Assembly: GCA_003242115.1 (NCBI GenBank)
Contig: QBMP01000067.1
Coordinates: forward strand, 1-12,953
Length of the DNA stretch: 12,953 bases
Direction: 5' to 3'
Source: Phormidesmis priestleyi
GTDB lineage: Bacteria > Cyanobacteriota > Cyanobacteriia > Phormidesmidales > Phormidesmidaceae
Part shown: positions 1 through 12,953 of the stretch, in pieces
Layout: each line of letters begins with the position of its first letter
How positions within the stretch are numbered: position 1 is the first letter of the stretch
Made by a program: the position numbers and the translations under genes
Notes under the pieces: generated by a model
Databases searched by the model: none
Seen by the model: only the letters and a program-made list of their open reading frames with translations
Told to the model about the DNA's origin: nothing

Positions 1-437
1 AGCCTGAAGTGAAGCTGGTGATGAGCGCTGATAAGCAAGTCACCGTTACGGATGAAAAGGGTCAGCCTAAGCTGGCTTGGGAAAAGCTCGAAGGCGATGT
101 TGCAGTTCAGCCCGGAGACATTTTGCGCTATGTCGTTGCTTCTGAAAATGAAGGCGAAATGGCCGCTGAAAATTTGGTGATTGCTCAGCCGATTTCTCCT
201 GAGCTGACTTACAGGCTGGGTTCTGCTAAGGGCAATGATATTGCCGTAACTACCTACAGCATTGACGACGGTAAAACGTTTGTCGCTGAACCGATGGTAG
301 AAGTCACTTTGCCTGACGGCACTGTAGAAATGCAGCCCGCACCCGCAGAGGCTTATACCAACGTGAAGTGGGACTTTAGCCAAGCGCTCGGAGCTAAAGC
401 AGCCGTCTCTGTTTCTCTCGAAGCAACCGTTAAGTAA
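1..437 (+). CDS. DUF11-type secreted protein, C-terminal part (5' end outside window)
   Basis: The reading frame is open from the window edge (frame of base 3) to a TAA at 435-437. A GTG at position 9 is in frame but lies inside the conserved domain (PEVKLVMSADKQV), so the real start is upstream. About 144 residues are visible. The pattern is that of a DUF11-type beta-sandwich: KLVMSADKQV, then VQPGDILRYVV, an N-x-G-rich strand, and a Leu/Pro turn (QPISPELTY). This matches small cyanobacterial DUF11 proteins that usually consist of a signal peptide plus one such domain. No enzyme motif or membrane segment is seen. DUF11 domains are typical of extracellular or cell-wall proteins, but a molecular function is not established. 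The following genes also encode DUF11 domains, suggesting a shared envelope role. A hairpin just downstream suggests that its transcript ends before the next group. Domain type is fairly certain; function is unknown. Confidence 0.75.
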   Translation, partial: PEVKLVMSADKQVTVTDEKGQPKLAWEKLEGDVAVQPGDILRYVVASENEGEMAAENLVIAQPISPELTYRLGSAKGNDIAVTTYSIDDGKTFVAEPMVEVTLPDGTVEMQPAPAEAYTNVKWDFSQALGAKAAVSVSLEATVK

Positions 438-713: not shown

Positions 714-2273
714 ATGTCAATGCCTAGATTTTCGGTTTGGTTTCGTCGCGGTTGGCTTCGTCGCGGTTGGCTTCGTCGCGGTTGGCTTCGTCAGTTAAGG
801 TGGAGTCTTTTTCTCTCAATGCTGTTGATTGTTCTAGCAGGGCAATCGACTCTTTTGGATGCGATCGCGCAAACATCATCCCCGCCAACTCTATTAATCA
901 ACCAAGCAACCGCCCGCTATAGCGCCTCAGGTAACGATATCAATCTCATCTCTAATCCCATCCAAATTGAGGTAGGAAATGCGCTGATTGATCCGGCAGG
1001 TAGCTTGCTAGGGTGTGACGGGCAGCCGCTCAGTAGCTATGCAGGCTTTTCGATGTCGCTATATGAGCCTGATGCCAGCGGCTTAGGACTCGGAAATTTG
1101 GTGCAGTTGACAGCTACGACAGGCGCTGACAGCATCCCGCCGAATAGCGGCAACGTCAATCCGTTTCCCTTTTTAGCTACTCAAGGAAAGTACAACTTTT
1201 TGCTGGATGCAACCCGCTCACTCACTGGGCCTCGCAACCTGGGTAAGATTCAAACTGCACAAGGCGCTGAATACGTTTTGGTCATCAATCCTCCGGCTGC
1301 TAGTAGCTTTACTGAACGGCGGATTCGATTGGTGATGTTGGGCGTGGTTAAAAACACAACCAACAACACAGCCATTCTGAGCTATCGGGCAACTGCTTTA
1401 GACGGACAACCCATTGGGACTGATGGCCAAACGGAGCTAGTAAGATCGGTTGAAATTCGCAATGCAGCGGTTCAAAGTCTGATCTTTTTTGAATTGGGTG
1501 TGAATTCGACGCTGTGCGATCGCAACCAGATGAATTTGGTCAAATCGGCGGATCGCTCGTCGGTGCAGCCAGGAGATACGGTGGTGTACCGGCTGCTGAT
1601 TCAAAATTTGGCCAAAATAGGCATTGATTCAGCCGTGGCAGTCGATACGCTGCCATTGGGCTTTCAGCTCATTCCAGAATCGGTGTCTGGGGTGATCAAT
1701 GGCACGCCCGCTGCTGTTGCTATTCAGCAGACGGGCTCTACGGTGACATTTAGCGTAGCCGATGCGATTGGGGCTGATCAGAAGCTAGAAATTATTTATG
1801 CAACCAGAGTTACTGCAGATGCGATTCGAGGCAGTGGTCGCAACAGTGCGATCGCAACCGCCCAGCGCATAGACAATCGATTCAGGTTACAAGATGGCCC
1901 CAGAACTCACCGCATGACGCTTGATCCGGGCATCTATTCGGACTGCGGCACGCTGATTGGCCGAGTGTTTGAAGATAAAAACTTTGATGGCGAACAGCAG
2001 CCCGGTGAAGCAGGCATTGCGAATGCGGTGATCTTTTTGGATGACGGCAACCGGGTAGTGACCGATGCGGATGGGTTGTTCTCACTTCAAAAAGTGTTGC
2101 CGGGGCAACGGACGGGCACGCTGGATTTGGTTTCACTGCCGGGATATACGCTGGCACCTAATTTGTACTTTAACGAGCGCAATAGCTATTCAAGGCTGGT
2201 CAATTTAGCGCCGGGTGGACTGGGCCGCATGAACTTTGGGGTGACGCCTACTTTTCAGGAGGGCCCGCTGTAA
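714..2273 (+). CDS. Secreted DUF11 / SdrD-B-like domain protein
   Basis: The 519-residue product is predicted to be exported. A strongly basic N-region (residues 11-30, with RRGWL three times in tandem) precedes a hydrophobic core (about 31-43) and a likely cleavage site after Ala-Ile-Ala (50-52). Residues about 55-270 begin with the INQATARY element common at the start of cyanobacterial DUF11 proteins and include a GSLLGCDGQPLSSY-type region. A DUF11-like domain runs from about 273 (NLVKSADRSSVQPGDTVVYR) to 400. An SdrD-B/Cna-B-like domain spans about 414-495 with a calcium-loop-like DKNFDGEQQPGE (421-432). No catalytic motif and no LPXTG anchor are seen. Start: ATG at 714, with a second ATG two codons later; neither has a clear Shine-Dalgarno. 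The stop overlaps the next start (TAATG), so the product is probably made together with the barrel protein and may be its partner. Domains are read by pattern; the role in envelope or surface assembly is inferred. Confidence 0.8.
   Translation: MSMPRFSVWFRRGWLRRGWLRRGWLRQLRWSLFLSMLLIVLAGQSTLLDAIAQTSSPPTLLINQATARYSASGNDINLISNPIQIEVGNALIDPAGSLLGCDGQPLSSYAGFSMSLYEPDASGLGLGNLVQLTATTGADSIPPNSGNVNPFPFLATQGKYNFLLDATRSLTGPRNLGKIQTAQGAEYVLVINPPAASSFTERRIRLVMLGVVKNTTNNTAILSYRATALDGQPIGTDGQTELVRSVEIRNAAVQSLIFFELGVNSTLCDRNQMNLVKSADRSSVQPGDTVVYRLLIQNLAKIGIDSAVAVDTLPLGFQLIPESVSGVINGTPAAVAIQQTGSTVTFSVADAIGADQKLEIIYATRVTADAIRGSGRNSAIATAQRIDNRFRLQDGPRTHRMTLDPGIYSDCGTLIGRVFEDKNFDGEQQPGEAGIANAVIFLDDGNRVVTDADGLFSLQKVLPGQRTGTLDLVSLPGYTLAPNLYFNERNSYSRLVNLAPGGLGRMNFGVTPTFQEGPL
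742..792 (+). repeat. 15-bp in-frame tandem repeat encoding RRGWL x3
   Basis: The unit TTCGTCGCGGTTGGC is repeated exactly three times (742-756, 757-771, 772-786), with a partial fourth copy TTCGTC (787-792). It lies in the signal-peptide N-region of the gene at 714 and encodes RRGWL three times. The period is a multiple of three, so loss or gain of copies would change the N-region by five residues without a frameshift. Confidence 0.9.
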
Positions 2274-2275
2274 TG
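2257..2275 (+). promoter_or_regulatory. Strong Shine-Dalgarno with TAATG stop/start overlap
   Basis: AGGAGGG (2257-2263) lies inside the last codons of the upstream gene, nine bases before the ATG at 2273. The upstream stop TAA (2271-2273) shares its last A with that ATG. This arrangement implies translational coupling of the two genes. It is the only strong Shine-Dalgarno I find before a start in this window. Confidence 0.8.
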
Positions 2276-5200
2276 GTCTCTAAAGCACAAAAAACACAAA
2301 TTTTAAGCGTGGGTTTTACGGGCGTTGTATTAGGCGTCGGGCTAATTCCGGTCGGGGCATCTAAAGCTCAGGCAGCTTCAGATACTTTGCCAATAGTCTC
2401 TCCGGCTGAAGCCCATGAAGACGAAACGACGGCAGTATTAGCGCTGCCTGAAGTCACTGCTGATCTGCCTGCACCTGAAGCCGATCATTCACGATATGTA
2501 GCGGTGGTATCAACGTGGTTAGCAGATGCTACAGCTCAATCAACAGGTGAAACGATTGTTGCAGGACTGCCAACAGAGCCGCCAACAGAGCCGTCAACAG
2601 AATTGCCAACAGAATTGCCAACGGTGGCTTTTGCTTCTGATCAGGCACCTGTTGCCGAAGCGCAGACGCTGCCTAATGTGACATTGCCTAGCCCCGGCGC
2701 AGCAGCAGTGCTGGTGATGCCGGAGTGGCAGCAGTCGCCTGCGCAAATTGCCTACAACCAAGCAGTTCAGCCATCGCTGCAAATATTGGCCGAAAGTAAT
2801 AAAGCGCAGACTGAGGCCGGATCGCAGCCATTAGTGATGCCTGACTGGCTGCGATCGCCCGTCCAAATTGCCGACAGCCGCAACGTCGTCATTTCTAGGG
2901 TAGTCTCATCAGATCCGAACGCAGCGCCCGATCAGCGGCTGGCTTTGCTCCCAATCCAAACCACAACATTAGGAGAACTGAGCGATCGCCTCAGCGATCC
3001 CAACGCACCGCTGACGTGGAGCACCCGCTCGGTTGCCAGTCCAGTTATATTAAGCGATCGCGTTATCGATCCGCCCGAATCAGTCGCTGTTTCTCCCACC
3101 TGGACGAATCCAGAATACTCGGAGCTGACCCTGCCAGCCTCGAATGCCACAGAGCGCTTTTTGTTGGGAAGCGATCGCACCGTTCCGCGCCTAGCTATTT
3201 CATCGCCGGGACTCTCCGATCCTAATCAGGTTATCTATGACGTTCGTAGCCTGCCTCAAATCGCGATTACGCCGATGGAGATGGCCAGCGCTGATGAAGC
3301 CGCGATCGCCGTCTCCGCTCAGCAGGTAGATATTCTCACGCCTCAATCCGGAGCAGTTTTAAATATTCCTTCCACCCCAATTGCGCTGCGCTTTCCGGTC
3401 GGGGCCAAAATTGCGCTGATCGTCAACGGTCAGCTCATTGACTCTAGCCAAGTCGGACGCACCGAAACTGACCCTACCACTCAGCTCAGAATTCAAACGT
3501 GGTACGGGATTCCGCTAGAAGCGGGAGACAACCTAATCGAGGTAATCTCGACAGAGACTGGCCAAGTATTTGCGAGTGCGCCTGTGATTGTGCGGGGCCA
3601 GCCTGAAGAGCTGACGCTATTTGCGCCCCAAACCCTGCCTGCTGACGGTAGCTCTACGGCAACGATTAGAGGTCAGCTTGTAGATGGCGTGGGCATTTCG
3701 TCGGTGTGGAATACGACCGTTACGCTCAATGCCAGCGATGGCCGCTTTTTGGGCACCGATCAAGCCCCGGATCAGCCCGGATTTCAGGTGCCGGTAATCA
3801 ATGGAGAGTTTTCGGCTGAGCTGCAATCTTCTCTGACTTCGCATTTAGTGCAGCTACAAGCGGCGACTTCTGGTTTTGAAACGTTTCGTCAAATTCAGTT
3901 CATCACGCCGCAAAGGCCCACGCTAATTTCAGGCGTTGTAGATTTGCGCTTTGGGGCAAGGGGCACAGATTATTACAGCAGTCGGCGAGAGTTTTTGCCG
4001 CTAGATCGTGACAACTCGTATGCGCTAGACGTGAATGCGGCTGTTTTTGCTACTGGCAATCTCGGAGAGTGGCTGTATACCGGGGCTTACAACAGCCGTC
4101 GCCCACTGAATGAAAACTGCCAAGGGGAATCAGGTCTTTTTCAAACCGAGGGCGGTTCTTGTGACAACACTTATCCGACTACTGGCGACGGCTCTTATTC
4201 AGAAGCCAGTGCCCCCTCGCTCGACAGCGTATATCTCCGATTAGAGCGCACTTCGCCCAGCAACGGCGCGGCTACTGACTATGCGCTATGGGGCGACTAC
4301 GGCACCGAAGAGTTCGCCACAGCGGCCCAATTTTTTACGGCCACCAGCCGTCAGTTTCATGGCTTTAAGGCAAACTACAACTTTGGCAATTTGGCTGTTA
4401 CGGGTCTGTATGCCAACAATGTAGAAGGCTTTCAGCGAGATACGCTAGCGCCTGATGGCACCAGCGGCTTTTACTTCACCTCGCTACGAAACATTGTGCC
4501 AGGAAGCGAAAATGTTTATTTTGAAGTGGAAGAGTTAGAGCGTCCGGGTACGGTGTTAGAGCGCCGTCAGCTATCGCGCGGGCTCGACTATGACATTGAC
4601 TACGACCGAGGCACACTGTTGTTTAATGATCCGGTGAGACGCACCGACATTAACAACATTGGTCAACTATTGGTGCGTCGGATCGTGACCACCTACCAGT
4701 ACGAAGGCGGCGGTAATACCAATGTGGTGGCGGGCCGATTGCAGTACGATTTGGATGGTCAGCCAGAGCAGAATTCTTGGCTCGGCACTAGCTATTTTAA
4801 TGAGGCTCAAGGTGATCGCAATTTCACCCTTTACGGCGCAGACACGCGCATTGCCCTAGGAGAAAGCGCTCAGCTGATTGCCGAAATTGCTCAATCTTCG
4901 AGTAGCTTTGCATCTGTTGGCAATGCGGCGGGCAGTACCGTAAGCGGGACGGCGTATCGGCTAGAAATCGATGGGAATTTAGGCGATCGCCTTACTGCCC
5001 GCAGCTATTTCCGCAGCACTGGCGCTGGCTTCACCAATGCCGCCACCACCAGCTTTGTGCCTGGGCAAACCCGCTATGGCGCAGATATTATTGGTCAGCT
5101 AACTGATACCACCGCACTACGGGCTCGGTTCGACCATGAAGATAACTTTGGCGTTGCCCCGCAGGTGACGGATTTATCGCCTTTGCTAGCAGGATTTAAT

Positions 5201-6712
5201 AACCCGCTCACCAATCCGGCGGGCACCCCCTTAGATAACTCACTCACGACCTATTCTCTAGGCGTTACCCAAAAGATTGGAGCTAGCACCGCCGAAGTCG
5301 ATTGGATTCATCGCGATCGCAGCGATCGCCTCAGTACCTTTGCTAATAGCAACGTCTCCACCGATCAGCTCAGAAGCCGCTTTACCACCCCGCTAGCTCA
5401 AAATCTCACATTCGTTGCCCAAAACGAACTCAATCTCTCCTCTGCTGTCGATCCGATTTATCCTAGCCGCACGCTGCTGGGGCTGAATTGGGAGGCTCTC
5501 CCCTGGCTCAATGTCGGCGTTAATCAAATCTTTTACGGCGGTGGTGGCAACAAGCGAGGTAGCTCTACCAGTATTGACGTTTCGGGCGAACATACCTTTG
5601 CGTCTAATACCGCCGTGCGCGGTCGCCTATCCGCCATTGATGGTTCTCAAGTCGGTGGCAGCATTGGCCTAGAACAAGGCATTAACCTCGCACCGGGTTT
5701 GGACTTGGATTTGGGCTACGAAAAAGTCTTTTCGACCTTGGGTAATGCCACCGCAGCCGGGACTCAGCTCAGCGAATCGGTCGCCGGTGCCAATGCCTCA
5801 GCCCTGGCCTTAGCAGGCGGAGAAAGCTACAGCGTTGGCCTCTCTTACAGCGATAATCCGAGCTTTCAAGCGAGCAGTCGGTTCGAGCATCGCACCTCCA
5901 CCAATGGCTCAAATACGGTGTTTACGCTCTCTGCGGTGGGCCGACTCACGCCTGCTCTCACTATTTTGGGAGACTATCGTCTAGCCAGCGCCGCCAATCA
6001 AAATATTACCGGATTAGGCACGACTAGCTTGCTCAAACTAGGGCTGGCCTATCGCAATTTGGAAGATGATCGCTTCAACGCTCTGCTGCGCTATGAATAT
6101 CGGTTGAATCCTAACTCTATTCCATCAGCTACAAGCTTTGGTACTAGCAGCGAAACTCAAGAGCATTTGTTAGCAGCCGAAGCTATTTATGCACCTAACT
6201 GGCAGTGGGAACTTTACGGCAAGTATGCGGTTCGCAACAGCAGCACATCTATTGACGGGGCAAGCGGTAGATTTGCCGCCAACAGCACCGTTCAACTCGC
6301 CCAGGCTAGAGCCACCTACCGACTGGGCTACAAGTGGGATGTCGTCGGTGAGGCCCGCTGGCTGGGCGGCGATGGCTACAGCGAAACGGGCTTTGCGATT
6401 GAAACGGGTTACTATCCACTGCCTGATCTGAGAGTGTCGGCGGGCTATAGCGCAGGCGCGGCGAATGATCGCGACTTTGGCAATAACCGCAGTGCGGGTG
6501 GATTTTACTTTGGTATTACCGCGAAGCTCAGCGGTTTGCTCAATGGCTTTGGCTCTCAGCCAACTGCACCCTATCAGCAAGTTCCGTCTTCGATTGCGCC
6601 CTCGGTAACTGAGGTATCGGCTACTGAAATGCCAGCAGGTGACATGCCAATAGGTGAAGCGCCAACCGCCGAAGCCCCAAGCAACCGCTATCCCACGGCC
6701 ACTGAACTCTAG
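2273..6712 (+). CDS. Large outer-membrane beta-barrel protein with N-terminal Ig-like domains
   Basis: The 1479-residue product starts with a signal peptide (basic MVSKAQK, hydrophobic about 10-30, cleavage near AQA 32-34). Residues about 36-350 are a Pro/Glu/Ser/Asp-rich, probably disordered region with a PTEP/PTEL repeat (100-115) and a duplicated LVMPxWxxSPxQIA motif (147-160, 187-200). An Ig-like unit follows at about 352-445, and a Big_1/invasin-like unit at about 447-545 (LPADGSSTATIRGQLVDG). From about 550 to 1426 the sequence alternates polar and hydrophobic or aromatic residues, with many Tyr and Gly and Asn/Asp turns, as in a large outer-membrane barrel. Residues 740-788 read VPGSENVYFE, RGLDYDIDYDRGTLLFNDPV, a pattern reminiscent of SprA-type and other giant barrel proteins. 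No TonB box or plug domain is seen. The last barrel-like segment ends at Phe1426 and is followed by a 53-residue Pro/Glu-rich tail. A role as translocon, adhesin or scaffold is inference; automated labels may say TonB-dependent receptor. Confidence 0.75.
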   Translation: MVSKAQKTQILSVGFTGVVLGVGLIPVGASKAQAASDTLPIVSPAEAHEDETTAVLALPEVTADLPAPEADHSRYVAVVSTWLADATAQSTGETIVAGLPTEPPTEPSTELPTELPTVAFASDQAPVAEAQTLPNVTLPSPGAAAVLVMPEWQQSPAQIAYNQAVQPSLQILAESNKAQTEAGSQPLVMPDWLRSPVQIADSRNVVISRVVSSDPNAAPDQRLALLPIQTTTLGELSDRLSDPNAPLTWSTRSVASPVILSDRVIDPPESVAVSPTWTNPEYSELTLPASNATERFLLGSDRTVPRLAISSPGLSDPNQVIYDVRSLPQIAITPMEMASADEAAIAVSAQQVDILTPQSGAVLNIPSTPIALRFPVGAKIALIVNGQLIDSSQVGRTETDPTTQLRIQTWYGIPLEAGDNLIEVISTETGQVFASAPVIVRGQPEELTLFAPQTLPADGSSTATIRGQLVDGVGISSVWNTTVTLNASDGRFLGTDQAPDQPGFQVPVINGEFSAELQSSLTSHLVQLQAATSGFETFRQIQFITPQRPTLISGVVDLRFGARGTDYYSSRREFLPLDRDNSYALDVNAAVFATGNLGEWLYTGAYNSRRPLNENCQGESGLFQTEGGSCDNTYPTTGDGSYSEASAPSLDSVYLRLERTSPSNGAATDYALWGDYGTEEFATAAQFFTATSRQFHGFKANYNFGNLAVTGLYANNVEGFQRDTLAPDGTSGFYFTSLRNIVPGSENVYFEVEELERPGTVLERRQLSRGLDYDIDYDRGTLLFNDPVRRTDINNIGQLLVRRIVTTYQYEGGGNTNVVAGRLQYDLDGQPEQNSWLGTSYFNEAQGDRNFTLYGADTRIALGESAQLIAEIAQSSSSFASVGNAAGSTVSGTAYRLEIDGNLGDRLTARSYFRSTGAGFTNAATTSFVPGQTRYGADIIGQLTDTTALRARFDHEDNFGVAPQVTDLSPLLAGFNNPLTNPAGTPLDNSLTTYSLGVTQKIGASTAEVDWIHRDRSDRLSTFANSNVSTDQLRSRFTTPLAQNLTFVAQNELNLSSAVDPIYPSRTLLGLNWEALPWLNVGVNQIFYGGGGNKRGSSTSIDVSGEHTFASNTAVRGRLSAIDGSQVGGSIGLEQGINLAPGLDLDLGYEKVFSTLGNATAAGTQLSESVAGANASALALAGGESYSVGLSYSDNPSFQASSRFEHRTSTNGSNTVFTLSAVGRLTPALTILGDYRLASAANQNITGLGTTSLLKLGLAYRNLEDDRFNALLRYEYRLNPNSIPSATSFGTSSETQEHLLAAEAIYAPNWQWELYGKYAVRNSSTSIDGASGRFAANSTVQLAQARATYRLGYKWDVVGEARWLGGDGYSETGFAIETGYYPLPDLRVSAGYSAGAANDRDFGNNRSAGGFYFGITAKLSGLLNGFGSQPTAPYQQVPSSIAPSVTEVSATEMPAGDMPIGEAPTAEAPSNRYPTATEL
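2570..2617 (+). repeat. 12-bp tandem repeat, four copies, encoding PTEP/PTEL
   Basis: Four 12-base units run from 2570: two exact copies of CCAACAGAGCCG, then TCAACAGAATTG and CCAACAGAATTG. A partial unit follows at 2618. They encode residues 100-115 of the barrel protein, a Pro-Thr-Glu-rich spacer shortly after the signal peptide. Confidence 0.85.
2711..2872 (+). repeat. Duplicated 14-residue motif LVMPxWxxSPxQIA
   Basis: Residues 147-160 (LVMPEWQQSPAQIA) and 187-200 (LVMPDWLRSPVQIA) of the barrel protein match at 10 of 14 positions and are 40 residues apart. The flanks are not similar. Conservation inside otherwise low-complexity sequence suggests a short linear binding motif or a repeated structural element. 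Confidence 0.75.
6626..6678 (+). repeat. 15-bp degenerate tandem repeat in the barrel C-terminal tail
   Basis: Units GAAATGCCAGCAGGT (6626-6640), GACATGCCAATAGGT (6641-6655) and GAAGCGCCAACCGCC (6656-6670), plus a partial GAAGCCCC, encode EMPAG, DMPIG, EAPTA and EAP at residues 1452-1469. The copies have diverged but keep the Glu/Asp-x-Pro spacing. Confidence 0.7.
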
Positions 6713-6778
6713 TTTTAATTGTCATCTCGCTCAATCCGCTCAAAAACTGCCCAAAACCGCCCAAAAACTGTTCAAAAG

Positions 6779-8947
6779 ATGACTCACCCACCGCTCAAAA
6801 AACATCTGACCAAAAACAGTCGAATGTGGCTCATGGCTTTCGGTTTGCTAAGTGCCATTTGGCTACCTAAAGTGAGCTGGGCGCAGGTTGATTCACCTAT
6901 TTCAGTACCTCCTTTTGCCAAAATTACGGTCAACAGCGCTGCTGATGGCTTGCCTCAACCCGATTCAGAGCTGACCTTGCGGGAGGCAATTGAGCTGACG
7001 AACGGCACTTTATCGTTTTCTGATTTGAGTGTGGCTGAACAGCAGCTTGTGGTTACGACTGGCCAATCTCGTTCTGAGATTCGGTTTGATTTGCCGATGG
7101 GGCAGACCACGATTGAGCTAGAAGGCGTGTTGCCAGCGATCGCTCAACCCCACCTCATCCTAGATGGCACCACTCAACCCGGCTACAATCCCAACGGCTC
7201 CGCAACGGCTGAAATTGCGATTCCCATCCCTATCGTCACGCTGCGTCCCGCCAGTGGCATTGAGGTGTTTCGCGGGCTTACCCTAGCTGCCGACAACATT
7301 ACCGTGCGGGGGCTGAGCCTGTACGGATTCAACTCACCCAGCCAAATTACGCAGTCAACGCCCCCGGCTGATATTTTCATTTCTAATCGGCAAATTCCGC
7401 TCAATCGAGAAACGCCGCTGCCCTCTGTTGGCGCTGCCTTTCCGCTCGATCACTCACCCAAAGGCATCGTGATTGAACAAAACTGGCTAGGGCTCTCGCC
7501 AGATGGCAGCAGACCAGCGGTGCCCTCTGGCTTTGGGGTTTCTGTTTTTGACAGTGCGGGCACGACTATTCGCCAAAATCGCATTCAGTATCACAACGGT
7601 AGCGGCATCATTTCCGGGCGTCAGGCCGATAGCTTGACTGTGTTAAACAATATTATTGTAGGTAATGGCACAGCGGGAATGCCGGATGCTATTCGCCTAA
7701 ATGGTCAAATTAACGAAGGGCTGATTTCGGGTAACTTGCTCTGTGGCAATGATGGCAGCGGCGTTTTTGTTTTTCGCCCTAGCGGTCGGGTAACGATTGC
7801 TAACAATCATATTCGCTTTAATGGGCAGCGCTTTAGAAGAGCGGCGGTGTATTTGATTGGGGACAATCATCGGGTTGTAGACAATGACATCACGGCTCAA
7901 AAAGGTGGCGGTGTGGTGGTGGGCCAAGGCGTTAATACCGTTAGCCAGGGAAATGTAATTACGGGCAATCGCTTTAGCCATATCGAAGGGCTGAGCATTG
8001 ATCTCACTGCGAGAGAAGATCGCGCGCCGAGAGACTATCAGTATGGCGATGGCATTAACCCACGGCGCAATAGCGAAAATCGCCGACGGGCAACGGCTAA
8101 TGGCGCAGTCGATGCGCCCCAGTTTGTTAGCAGTGAGCTGTTGTTAATCAATGGCCGAGTGGTGGTAAGCGGCCAAGCTGATCCGAATAATGAAATTCAG
8201 CTATACCGCACGACGGGCAAGGCGAATGAACATGGGCCGCTGTCTGAACCCATTGCGACGACGACGGCAGATGCGACCGGGAAGTTTGAATTTGAATTGG
8301 ATGAACTGAAAGAAGGGGAGGTGTTGAGTGCTGTAGCTACCGACCCGATTTACGGCACCTCCGAACCTGCCAGCAACAGCCTGATTCGCTCACTCAGCAA
8401 TTCTGAAGCTGCCACGGCTGCGACTGAACCCATTGAAATGCCTCAATGCACCACGCCACCAGCCACCGAAGCGCCGCCAGCCTCACCGCCAACAGAAGCT
8501 CTAGTAATACCCGATACGCTTCAGCTAGAAGTGCCTCGAAACATTCATTTTGCCCTCAATGAAGACGTTATCAGTCCTGAAAGTGCGGCAGTGCTCGATA
8601 AAATTGCCGATGTGCTCAGGCAGTATCCCAGCATTGTGGTGGATCTGCATGGCCATACGGACTCACGCGCCAGCCAAACCTACAACCAAGATTTAGCTCG
8701 CCGTCGGGCTGAAAATGCTCGCCGGTATTTGTTGAACCAAGGCATTGGGTCTGAGCGGATGATTCTTCGATCTTTTGGTGAAACGGCGCTGCTAGTTGTA
8801 GAAACGAATAGAACAAACTTTGCCCGCAACCGCCGAGTTGAGTTTGTTTTCAAAGATGTGCGCGGCGTTGACATTACTTTTACTGACCAAGAAAACGATT
8901 TGCAGATTGAGCTTATAAGTACCTGTGCAAAGTTAATTACAGAATAA
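6779..8947 (+). CDS. Parallel beta-helix protein with C-terminal OmpA-like domain
   Basis: The start is placed at ATG 6779 (722 residues). An in-frame TTG at 6719 would add 20 residues, and ATG 6824 is also possible; none has a good Shine-Dalgarno. From 6779 the product begins with a plausible signal peptide (basic KKHLTKNSR, a hydrophobic core, cleavage near SWA-Q, about residue 36). A CSLREA-like start is seen near 64-71 (ELTLREAI), with ILDGTTQPGY beyond it. Residues about 231-410 show recurrent N-x-I/V and G-x-G spacing typical of PbH1/NosD-type right-handed beta-helices. An Ig-like unit spans about 442-540, then a Pro/Thr-rich linker (about 555-580). The OmpA-like domain (about 581-700) keeps the peptidoglycan-binding hallmarks HGHTDS (624-629, Asp628), the Arg cluster 641-643 and NRRVEF. 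It probably bridges the outer membrane/surface assembly and the cell wall. The OmpA assignment is strong; the beta-helix ligand is unknown. Confidence 0.8.
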   Translation: MTHPPLKKHLTKNSRMWLMAFGLLSAIWLPKVSWAQVDSPISVPPFAKITVNSAADGLPQPDSELTLREAIELTNGTLSFSDLSVAEQQLVVTTGQSRSEIRFDLPMGQTTIELEGVLPAIAQPHLILDGTTQPGYNPNGSATAEIAIPIPIVTLRPASGIEVFRGLTLAADNITVRGLSLYGFNSPSQITQSTPPADIFISNRQIPLNRETPLPSVGAAFPLDHSPKGIVIEQNWLGLSPDGSRPAVPSGFGVSVFDSAGTTIRQNRIQYHNGSGIISGRQADSLTVLNNIIVGNGTAGMPDAIRLNGQINEGLISGNLLCGNDGSGVFVFRPSGRVTIANNHIRFNGQRFRRAAVYLIGDNHRVVDNDITAQKGGGVVVGQGVNTVSQGNVITGNRFSHIEGLSIDLTAREDRAPRDYQYGDGINPRRNSENRRRATANGAVDAPQFVSSELLLINGRVVVSGQADPNNEIQLYRTTGKANEHGPLSEPIATTTADATGKFEFELDELKEGEVLSAVATDPIYGTSEPASNSLIRSLSNSEAATAATEPIEMPQCTTPPATEAPPASPPTEALVIPDTLQLEVPRNIHFALNEDVISPESAAVLDKIADVLRQYPSIVVDLHGHTDSRASQTYNQDLARRRAENARRYLLNQGIGSERMILRSFGETALLVVETNRTNFARNRRVEFVFKDVRGVDITFTDQENDLQIELISTCAKLITE

Positions 8948-9272: not shown

Positions 9273-12200
9273 ATGTCCAAAACAGTTATTCTCGCGACTA
9301 TTGCTAACCGTCACCGCACCTATAAAATGGGGCTACAACGGATATTGTTGTGGGCGTTAGGAACAGGGGGTACAGTGCTGCTGCCTGTCCCTAACGCACT
9401 CGCCAATAGCCCCATCTGCGTATCGCCCTCTACCGCAACATTTAATACTGCCAACTACACGCGAAATACACCACTGCAAAATTCACTGCCGTTAACGTTT
9501 TTTAGCGGCAGTATGGGTTTTAATGCGTCACGGAGTGGCACAGCGACCTGGAGTAGTGGCGTACAAGTGCAAAACGATTCGATAGTCGGCGATTACCTAT
9601 TCTTGCAGCCCAATAATACAGCTAACTATCTCTCTAGCAGTAACAAAGTGACGTATGTTTTCTCATTTCCCCAGCGATTAACAAGCTTTTCTATGATAGG
9701 CAGCGGGCTCAACAACGACGATGGCACCACCATTATTGCCAGCTATCAGGGGGTGCCGATTCAAATTACAGCGGCAAACTTCAGTAACTTGAGCCCAGGC
9801 ATGACCCTAAAAGATGCTGATGGAGATGGTCAAAGAGACACCGTAGTTAGCAGCAATACGACTGGTGGTGTCTCTGTCAATACGAATACCTACAATTTGA
9901 ATATTACTGGGCCGATTGATACCATCAGAGTTGTTTCGGGGAAAGACTCTGCCAGTCTTGGTACGGTGACGATTGGCCTGCGCACCTTTGAGTACTGTAC
10001 GCAAGGTGCTACCAGTAATGTCATTGACTATGGAGATGCGCCCGATAGCTACGGAACAACCAATGCTAACAATGGGGCTCGTCATAACATCGTCAGTGGG
10101 CTACACCTCGGCACGGCCCCAGATAGTGAATCCGACGCGGTGCTACCGTTAGATGGTACTGGCGATGGTGCGGATGAAGATGGCATTACCCTACCGACGC
10201 TGACAGCAGGTAATACTAGCTATACGATTCCGGCTAGCAATATTACAGCAACTGGATCAGGGACGCTGCATGGCTGGGTGGATTTTGATAAAAATGGAAC
10301 GTTTAGTGCCAGTGAGTATGCCAGTGTGGCCGTTACCAATGGAACACCGTCTGGCAACCTAGTTTGGAATAGTATTACAGCGGGCGCAGCGGGCAATACT
10401 TACGCCCGATTTAGATTTACAACTGATGCCAGCATTAATGCAAGTAGACCCAGTGGGATTGCAGGAAATGGTGAGGTAGAAGATTATCGGTTAGCGATCG
10501 CATCCCCTCCATCTGCTTCTCAACCCTTCACCTGCGATACCTCGCTGTATATTGTCATCGGTGCCGAGTTCAATCCATTCTCGCAGCTTAGCCGGATTAA
10601 TCGTTCCGTAGAACCCTTTACGTTTGATCCTATAGGCCCTCAAATTAACAACTACAACTACAATGCTTTAGCCTATAACCCAGTCGATAATTATCTCTAT
10701 GGAATTGTTGAATTCACACAGAGTGGCAGTCCTTTCCTGCCAGGCACTGTGCTCAAAATTGGCACTGATGGTGTGCCTGTTTCTCTAGGAATACCCCAGG
10801 GATATGCCATTCCTTACAGACCTAATGCGGGTACTTTTTTGGCAGATGGAACCTATGTAATCGGTAGACAAACCAATTCGATTGTGACGCTCAACGTGAC
10901 AACATCACCCCCGACAGCAACGAACCGAGGAACCGTGACGGGAGCCTTATTTGATGATATTGCCGTTAACCCTTACGACACCACACCTAACCGAGTTTAT
11001 GGGGTTGATGCTAACAGCAATCGCCTGGTTCATTTTAATCTGGCCAATACTGGTGCTGGGGTGACGGCTGTCGGTGGTAACACCAACTTTAGCCACAACT
11101 ATGGTTCTCAGTTTTACGACGTTTTTGGTAACTTACTTTATCGCAGCGGTGGGATAAATGAGCTGTACACCATTGCCGCAGATGGCTCATCTACTAAAAT
11201 TGCTAATACCCCCAGTGGTGGCTCCCACGACGGTGCTTCTTGTTTTTCCGTAGGGCTTTCAAAAGAAGTCAACAATTCTCAGCCAGTTGCCGCTGGGCAA
11301 ACTGTCACCTACACTTACCGAATAGCTAACTCTAGTAGCTTAGCCATGTCGGTCACCTTGAGTGACGATTTAAGGTCGGTGAGCGATTATGCAGGTACGG
11401 CTGCTGAAAATGAAAGCAGTACGCCCATCAATGGGACATACACAGGTACAGTCTCCACCCCGTCGGGAACAGTCACGCTAAGCAACAGCAATCAAACTAT
11501 TACGATTTCGGGGATTGCACTTCCACCGCGATCCATTACGCCAATCACCGTAGAAGTCACCGTGCCATCGTCAGCCACGCTAGATACCTACTACAACCAA
11601 GCAACGCTGACCGGATTACCCCCGAATTTTGTTCCGTTAGTGCAGTCTGATTACCCTGCCACAGCGCTCTACGAAGATCCGACTCCCTTGGCGGTAATGC
11701 CCGCAGTTGCTAACGTGCCTAACGTCCTATTAGCAAAGCGAATTACTGCGATTAATCGAGGGCTCTTTGATGAACAACTCTTTAATACGCTTGGTAGCGA
11801 GAGTTATGTCAACGTAGGCACCAACGCAGATGATGACAACGCCGTGAATTGGCCCGGAGCCGCAACTACAGCGAATACAGGGAGCAGTACCGGCCAGCCT
11901 GTGGAAAGCTATATTGCCGGGATTGCCGGCATTAACGATTCGACGGCTGTTGAAAATAAGACGATTCGCCCAGGCGATCAGATAGAGTATACGATTCCAT
12001 TTTTATCCAATGGCAATGCGATCGCGAGAGGTTTGTTGATTTGCGATCGCATCCCTGCCAACACCACCTTTCTCTCTACCGCTTTCAACAGCAGCACGCC
12101 AGCTGCGGCTGGGTCAGGTGATCGTGGCATTTTCATTAGCTTCAATGGCCTTAACGTCGCGCTGACTAACGTGAACGATGGCGATGAAATCGCCGCTACT

Positions 12201-12407
12201 GGCGGCAATGACAACGGCATTGGCGGCTATTACTTTGCTCCCGGCATCGATCCTAGCAGCGCTTTTGCAGGTAAAACAGTGAGCTGCGGTGGGCCGAATA
12301 CCAACGGCGCAATTGTCGTGGACTCAAGTGATGTGCCTAATGCTACTGGTGACGGCGTTCCTAACAATTCCTATGGCTTTATCCGCTTTAGGACAGTCAT
12401 TAACTAA
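9273..12407 (+). CDS. Large secreted multidomain protein (GEVED, DUF6923-like, DUF11)
   Basis: The 1044-residue product has a signal sequence. From ATG 9273 the N-region is long; an internal ATG at 9327 would give a compact signal peptide (MGLQRILLWALG, ending ANALA-type before NSPICV). Residues about 45-245 form a beta-rich N-terminal domain with a calcium-loop-like DADGDGQRD (181-189). A GEVED domain follows: it opens with DYGDAPDSYG (about 252), contains the EF-hand-like loop DFDKNGTFSASE (337-348) and closes with the name motif GEVED at 400-404. Residues about 419-660 resemble DUF6923, a propeller-like region (SLYIV, YNALAYNPVDNYLYGI, LFDDIAVNP). A DUF11-like domain spans about 662-780 (SKEVNNSQPVAAGQTVTYTY). 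The last 240 residues (PNVLLAKRIT, IRPGDQIEYTIPF) form another DUF11-related module. No membrane anchor or sortase motif is seen. The same domain family occurs in the first two genes, suggesting a surface role shared with the barrel group. The gap upstream suggests its own promoter. Confidence 0.8.
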   Translation: MSKTVILATIANRHRTYKMGLQRILLWALGTGGTVLLPVPNALANSPICVSPSTATFNTANYTRNTPLQNSLPLTFFSGSMGFNASRSGTATWSSGVQVQNDSIVGDYLFLQPNNTANYLSSSNKVTYVFSFPQRLTSFSMIGSGLNNDDGTTIIASYQGVPIQITAANFSNLSPGMTLKDADGDGQRDTVVSSNTTGGVSVNTNTYNLNITGPIDTIRVVSGKDSASLGTVTIGLRTFEYCTQGATSNVIDYGDAPDSYGTTNANNGARHNIVSGLHLGTAPDSESDAVLPLDGTGDGADEDGITLPTLTAGNTSYTIPASNITATGSGTLHGWVDFDKNGTFSASEYASVAVTNGTPSGNLVWNSITAGAAGNTYARFRFTTDASINASRPSGIAGNGEVEDYRLAIASPPSASQPFTCDTSLYIVIGAEFNPFSQLSRINRSVEPFTFDPIGPQINNYNYNALAYNPVDNYLYGIVEFTQSGSPFLPGTVLKIGTDGVPVSLGIPQGYAIPYRPNAGTFLADGTYVIGRQTNSIVTLNVTTSPPTATNRGTVTGALFDDIAVNPYDTTPNRVYGVDANSNRLVHFNLANTGAGVTAVGGNTNFSHNYGSQFYDVFGNLLYRSGGINELYTIAADGSSTKIANTPSGGSHDGASCFSVGLSKEVNNSQPVAAGQTVTYTYRIANSSSLAMSVTLSDDLRSVSDYAGTAAENESSTPINGTYTGTVSTPSGTVTLSNSNQTITISGIALPPRSITPITVEVTVPSSATLDTYYNQATLTGLPPNFVPLVQSDYPATALYEDPTPLAVMPAVANVPNVLLAKRITAINRGLFDEQLFNTLGSESYVNVGTNADDDNAVNWPGAATTANTGSSTGQPVESYIAGIAGINDSTAVENKTIRPGDQIEYTIPFLSNGNAIARGLLICDRIPANTTFLSTAFNSSTPAAAGSGDRGIFISFNGLNVALTNVNDGDEIAATGGNDNGIGGYYFAPGIDPSSAFAGKTVSCGGPNTNGAIVVDSSDVPNATGDGVPNNSYGFIRFRTVIN

Positions 12408-12477: not shown

Positions 12478-12953
12478 TTATTGCTCGAATGATTGCCCTA
12501 GTGACTGATAGGTTCGTCCGCGCCATTGGATAGAGCGTTGAGTGGCGGAAAGGATGATTCTAATCACGGCTAGCGGATCGGCCAATGGTGAGAGCCAAAA
12601 GCTTAGAGATTGAAAGAAGCTGGCTTTGGACCAGTCGTAAGAGCCGGTGACAGCGGCCTGCATTCCGCAGCGGATGAGGAGTAAGAAGGTGTTGAGGGCG
12701 ATCGCTACCAACAGCATCAGCGATCCAACGCTCTGCCATCCGTAGAACTTAATCGCTAGCAGCGCAAAAACCAATAGCGGCAGCGGCAGCGCCTGAGTGC
12801 TCACGAGTAGCCAAAGGTCACTCCAGAGCTGTCCGCGTGAAATCGAGTCTTTAAGATCGAGCGATCGCCCCCATCCCGACCAAGTTTCAGCCATGCCCTC
12901 ATACATTCGCACGCTGATCACCTCAGCCCCATCCAAAAAGCCCACCTTAAAGC
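12478..12953 (-). CDS. cruG: C-terminal part of a membrane glycosyltransferase, CruG-like (5' end outside window)
   Basis: The minus-strand frame runs from the window edge to a TAA at 12478-12480. A GTG at 12945 is in frame but is preceded by coding sequence (FKVGFLDGAEVI), so it is internal and the gene start lies beyond 12953. About 158 residues are visible. They start with FLDGAEVISVRMYEG and WSGWGRSLDLKD, which resembles the acceptor-side end of membrane family 2 glycosyltransferases. Two strongly hydrophobic segments (LWLLVSTQALPLPLLVFALL and SLMLLVAIALNTFLLLI) and a third weaker one (SFWLSPLADPLAVIRIIL) follow, with a terminal WRGRTY element. The combination recalls cyanobacterial CruG, which glycosylates the 2'-hydroxyl of carotenoids such as myxol. 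The assignment is from memory of the family; the catalytic half (DxD region) is outside the window. The gene is convergent with the surface protein gene (70-base gap) and not functionally tied to it. Membrane glycosyltransferase is likely; CruG specifically is moderate. Confidence 0.5.
   Translation of the reverse strand, partial: FKVGFLDGAEVISVRMYEGMAETWSGWGRSLDLKDSISRGQLWSDLWLLVSTQALPLPLLVFALLAIKFYGWQSVGSLMLLVAIALNTFLLLIRCGMQAAVTGSYDWSKASFFQSLSFWLSPLADPLAVIRIILSATQRSIQWRGRTYQSLGQSFEQ

Follow-up and report, generated by a model that had tools for sequence, protein, structure and literature searches.

The window, that is, the whole stretch of 12,953 nt analysed, belongs to a 15,966-base contig of the draft genome of Phormidesmis priestleyi and contains a cluster of + strand genes, lettered A to E, for which a role in surface display is proposed here; a further gene of the set, Z, lies upstream of A on another contig. 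The genes and their features, with the evidence for each open reading frame (ORF), domain or motif in brackets, are as follows.

3..437, + strand: A, a small single-DUF11-like protein, cut by the contig start (ORF and weakly DUF11-like domain scan)
714..2273, + strand: B, putative base subunit, with a signal-peptide-like start, an N-terminal donor-strand motif, a DUF11/CLIPPER domain with a K/D/N triad and an SdrD_B-like domain (ORF, Pfam and NCBIfam scans)
894..920, + strand: candidate donor-strand motif of B, LINQATARY, directly after the signal-peptide-like stretch (motif comparison)
1533..1811, + strand: DUF11/CLIPPER domain of B with the isopeptide triad Lys, Asp, Asn (domain scans)
1962..2108, + strand: SdrD_B-like domain of B (Pfam below cut-off; weak match to the SdrD structure)
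2273..6712, + strand: C, giant barrel protein (ORF, AlphaFold2 model)
3305..3907, + strand: Ig-like domains of C (resemblance to GH2 galactosidase C-terminal and intimin Ig domains; Invasin_D3)
3923..6526, + strand: barrel of C, modelled with about 40 strands (AlphaFold2; structure matches to outer-membrane barrels)
6719..8947, + strand: D, beta-helix, Big_6 and OmpA protein, with a TTG start at 6719 and the likely start at ATG 6779 (ORF, Pfam)
8549..8833, + strand: OmpA domain of D (Pfam, E 2.7e-18)
9273..12407, + strand: E, DUF6923/GEVED/DUF7927/DUF11 surface protein, proposed tip adhesin (Pfam and NCBIfam scans)
11703..12404, + strand: E-CTD, the conserved CLIPPER-like C-terminal domain of E, proposed acceptor without a closing strand (profile and structure alignments)
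12372..12404, + strand: terminal motif YGFIRFRTVIN, at the very end of E (motif count)

In the window, the ORFs of B and C overlap by a single base, and a start of D at ATG 6779 leaves a gap of 66 bases after C, in keeping with an earlier, sequence-only reading that had seen three same-strand genes here with gaps of at most 66 bases (ORFs 714-2273, 2273-6712 and 6719-8947). Its description of the products also held. The 714 product is DUF11/SdrD-B-like (TIGR01451 at 34.6 bits, cut-off 24; Pfam DUF11 at 20.7 bits and SdrD_B, both below cut-off), the 6779 product combines a beta-helix, Big_6 and an OmpA domain in the Pfam scan (OmpA at 66.6 bits against a cut-off of 27.2, with peptidoglycan binding predicted), the 2273 product is modelled as a barrel with Ig-like domains, and DUF11 proteins lie on both sides, A being weakly DUF11-like and E of DUF11 type (DUF11 27.1 bits, cut-off 24.6; TIGR01451 41.0 bits, cut-off 24). 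B ends in a conserved C-terminus, LxPGGxxRMNFxVTP. Its signal region includes a 15-base tandem repeat (737-792) encoding repeated RRGWL, the copy number of which is possibly variable.

For C, the Pfam scan gave no barrel family and an Invasin_D3 match below cut-off, while the sequence alone matched the PDB at chance level only and the C profile gave a weak match confined to the Ig part of galactosidases. In the AlphaFold2 model of residues 345-1430 (pLDDT 77.6, pTM 0.64), Ig-like domains precede a region with 42 strands that are each 7 residues or longer, and structure searches with this model match outer-membrane barrels. C is predicted to be located in the outer membrane, where it would form a platform.

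The genomic context of these genes was examined in the best 80 of 171 relatives found by scanning species genomes with a C relative from Nostoc as query, a set that is mostly Nostocales and hence biased; a locus is termed testable when it has enough flanking sequence for the gene in question. B adjoins C in 74/75 testable loci, and for this reason their adjacency is far beyond chance; B lies within two genes of C in 75/75, and a 4-base overlap is seen in 65 of the 74 adjacent pairs. A and Z lie upstream of B in 73/73 testable loci and E-CTD proteins downstream in 52/62, whereas D is found downstream in only 13/62. The conserved unit is Z-A-B-C-(D)-E with D optional, and the three-gene module of the 714, 2273 and 6779 products was rejected as the unit on that account. 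The sequence-only reading was thus borne out in part: its envelope module, in which DUF11 proteins would be partners or cargo, stands, as B, C and the flanking DUF11 genes stay together across cyanobacteria, but the three-gene set as a conserved unit fails on D.

The same association was seen in 194 evenly drawn cyanobacterial genomes, where the barrel search scored at most two candidates per genome, so that copies of C may be undercounted. C is present in 26/194 genomes, and B (E < 1e-60) and E-CTD (E < 1e-11) occur in the same 26, with weak matches only in 6 and 7 more, respectively; a D-like protein scoring above 330 bits is found in 12 of the 26. In G052, G077 and G187 the open frame that encodes the barrel also encodes an OmpA domain (E 1e-10 or lower); G145 has a weak match of this kind (E 1.8e-4), and Synechococcus NIES-970 has the fusion as well. 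G187 has a separate D besides its fusion. Among 14 further loci, five (L093-L097, type II) encode a short B and have neither A nor Z in the flank examined, and L100 also lacks A and Z. Two ORFs downstream of the operon (L065 16308-17027 and L026 14074-14754) begin alike and presumably represent a transposase type; insertions of this kind may be connected with the loss of E at certain loci. Overall, there is good support for the module and for its link to E.

In P. priestleyi itself, contig C176 ends with gene Z (41% identity to Cylindrospermum Z) followed by the first codons of A; it has 9 bases in common with the start of the window, and the reading frame of A continues across the junction. 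We infer from these contig ends that the genome has the order Z-A-B-C-D-E. A second set is split over two contigs, with a short B at the end of C122 (L088) and C, D-like and E-like genes on C96 (L004); the D-like gene of this set includes a stretch of unknown bases as well as a stop. At the other end of the window, an opposite-strand gene (12478-12951), cut by the window end, matches part of the CruG 2'-O-glycosyltransferase below the family cut-off.

Relatives of the module are also found in other phyla. A tblastn search with C in plasmids gave 43 records, including 17 from Deinococcus and 10 from Thermus, and 36 proteins from 10 of these loci, nine of them non-cyanobacterial, were searched with the profiles of this analysis. 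Of the nine, 8 have a match to B and 4 a match to A (E 4e-15 to 4e-20); C is matched in all 9, the loci having been chosen for C. On pTT27 of Thermus thermophilus, the genes for A, Z, B and C are followed in this order by one for an E-like protein, whose C-terminus is matched only weakly (E 0.006). Deinococcus ficus combines A-Z-B-C with a beta-helix protein, the end of which is in part E-CTD-like; the gene occupying the Z position in D. radiodurans and Deinococcus QL22 was not matched by the Z profile. In Acinetobacter haemolyticus, B and C are fused and accompanied by A, an OmpA protein and a DUF11 protein, and Vibrio campbellii encodes a protein of at least 3606 residues, classed as DUF11-type from its B-profile match alone, together with C and a double OmpA protein. 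In Deinococcus, Thermus, Acinetobacter, Vibrio and Alphaproteobacteria, relatives of C have DUF11-type genes next to them. With the Vibrio C as query, 327 proteins were found, of which the best 120 were considered; most are named 'hypothetical' or 'TonB-dependent receptor', and source-named relatives among the matches listed come from Vibrio, Aliivibrio, Photobacterium, Shewanella, Psychrilyobacter and others. The Vibrio and cyanobacterial C profiles align over 834 columns (E 6e-53), and one Myxococcales protein combines DUF11, OmpA and barrel in a single chain.

The termini of the DUF11 proteins suggest how they may be joined. Directly after the signal-peptide-like stretch, the motif (I)xNxAxxxY is present in 82/83 Z and 82/88 B proteins, compared with 1/83 A, 6/79 E (two of which, L063 and L030, look genuine), 1/98 C, 0/30 D and 11 of 547 other genes of at least 150 residues. 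The short B, predicted beforehand to carry the motif, does so in 4/5 type-II loci and in the copy from the same genome, with a variant in L093, and the motif is likewise N-terminal in Z and B of Thermus and Deinococcus and in the Acinetobacter B-C fusion. At the other end, the terminal motif of E was found in 68 ORFs from 66 loci (the E of the window being counted twice) and begins 11 residues from the end in 67 ORFs and 12 in one. Of the isopeptide triad, Lys and Asp are each invariant in E-CTD (79/79), and the C-terminal domain of Z retains Lys in 83/83 and Glu in 82/83; the internal DUF11 domain of B has K, D and N in 88/88 each, the bond itself being predicted, and in A the catalytic Asp position is Gln in 79/83.

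E seems to end immediately ahead of the strand needed to close its last domain. The alignment of E-CTD with structure 9ifr, the numbering of which is doubtful, stops before the Asn strand if the Lys strands match, and 3/6 same-protein alignments agree with an E-CTD that has no Asn strand of its own; the isopeptide positions of CNA, RrgB and SpaA, as we take them to be, also fall just past the aligned ranges. Weighing against this, 43/76 profile alignments and 1/6 same-protein alignments disagree. Donor-strand joining, the simplest reading of the termini, is considered likely. A sequence search of the PDB with the E-CTD profile had no match, Foldseek with the E-CTD model gave no match at E 0.001 or better, and a first sorting of terminal and internal domains with the CLIPPER model failed because local matches end at insertions. 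Given the correct register, an inter-chain bond would leave a domain in which Lys and the acid are invariant but which has no Asn strand of its own, and the conservation of Lys and Asp in E therefore makes a bond to the Asn of a donor possible.

On balance, we consider it probable that the cluster encodes a surface-display system in which DUF11 (CLIPPER) subunits are joined by donor-strand complementation with C as the outer-membrane platform. Z and B would each lend an N-terminal strand to close the incomplete domain of the next subunit, and E-CTD would be the acceptor, closed by the donor strand of a partner, with B as base subunit, E as tip adhesin and A perhaps as a cap. C, as a very large barrel, would hold the surface fibre in the outer membrane and might also be its export route, while the OmpA domain, in D or fused to the barrel, would act as a peptidoglycan clamp; the Lys of E might form an isopeptide bond with the donor Asn. 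More tentatively, it could be speculated that these proteins represent an undescribed class of outer-membrane fibre, in which a ~40-strand barrel assembles split CLIPPER subunits by donor-strand exchange, autocatalytic intermolecular isopeptide bonds lock them into a natural Tag/Catcher fibre and OmpA clamps it to peptidoglycan, in Cyanobacteria, Deinococcota, Pseudomonadota, Myxococcota and some Fusobacteriia. If true, a large-barrel family called 'TonB-dependent receptor' or 'hypothetical' would gain a function as surface-adhesin platform, Gram-negative bacteria would have a further route to covalent, shear-resistant fibres, and natural split isopeptide pairs would have a new source.

Other explanations are less well placed. 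That C is an export channel reading the constant E-CTD as a secretion signal, like SprA of the type IX secretion system (T9SS), and that no donor strand is involved, appears unlikely, as it leaves unexplained both the N-terminal motif of Z and B and the end point of the 9ifr alignment, and no Por secretion tail was found in E (Pfam and NCBIfam scans, E up to 0.1). SprA_N (PF14349) is unmatched in the genome, but control genomes are equally without a match, which makes this result uninformative. An envelope-strengthening or S-layer-like assembly, in which a porin-like C is tied to peptidoglycan as in deinococcal SlpA and the DUF11 proteins form a static coat with no defined joint, is quite improbable, even though SlpA complexes of Deinococcus are the top three Foldseek matches of the C model and relatives exist in Deinococcota. 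Finally, a TonB-dependent nutrient receptor with the DUF11 genes as mere neighbours, suggested by the NCBI names of many C relatives (at least 1069 protein clusters in one search, those named being 'TonB-dependent receptor' or 'hypothetical'), was rejected as most improbable, since C has no plug domain or TonB-receptor barrel family (Pfam, E up to 0.1) and is closely linked to B, A, Z and E-CTD.

The proposed surface-display system shares features with several known ones. In the chaperone-usher systems of FimD and PapC, the platform belongs to the usher family PF00577, whereas neither this family nor an autotransporter barrel family was found in C (Pfam, E up to 0.1). A partial Usher-family gene lies elsewhere in the genome, separate from C (contig C408:149-898, L116), so that a chaperone-usher system may be present in this genome as well. 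Type IX secretion likewise has a very large barrel, SprA, and secreted proteins with constant C-terminal domains, but E is without a T9SS tail and no T9SS partner genes were noticed in the loci read. The earlier reading knew of no named pathway with this set, and searches of open-licence PMC papers gave no description of the module, nor did the sections consulted of PMC13297417, PMC9210967 and PMC8779699; a term search in the Anabaena exoproteome paper (PMC4390845) had no match. Archaeal threads (Saci_0406) combine donor-strand complementation and a proposed intermolecular isopeptide bond in one filament according to the sections consulted (PMC9715654), as is proposed here from sequence and models; they differ in being archaeal, with no outer membrane, another subunit family and an Asp-Asn bond between subunits n and n+2. 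The DUF11 grappling hooks of Litorilinea (GhlA) are also DUF11-domain surface filaments, yet each is one giant chain of 49 domains, and no barrel operon is mentioned in the portion of the source considered (PMC13319060). The CLIPPER (DUF11) fibrillar adhesins have the same domain family as B and E. In the part of the report consulted, the crystallised CLIPPER is that of an Acinetobacter adhesin, which has a GEVED-like domain and a stalk of CLIPPER domains and carries an OmpA-like anchor of its own; the Lys-Asn bond and the anchor are in one chain there (PMC12617251), whereas in the module of the window the last domain seems to be split over two chains and the anchor would be formed by barrel and OmpA.
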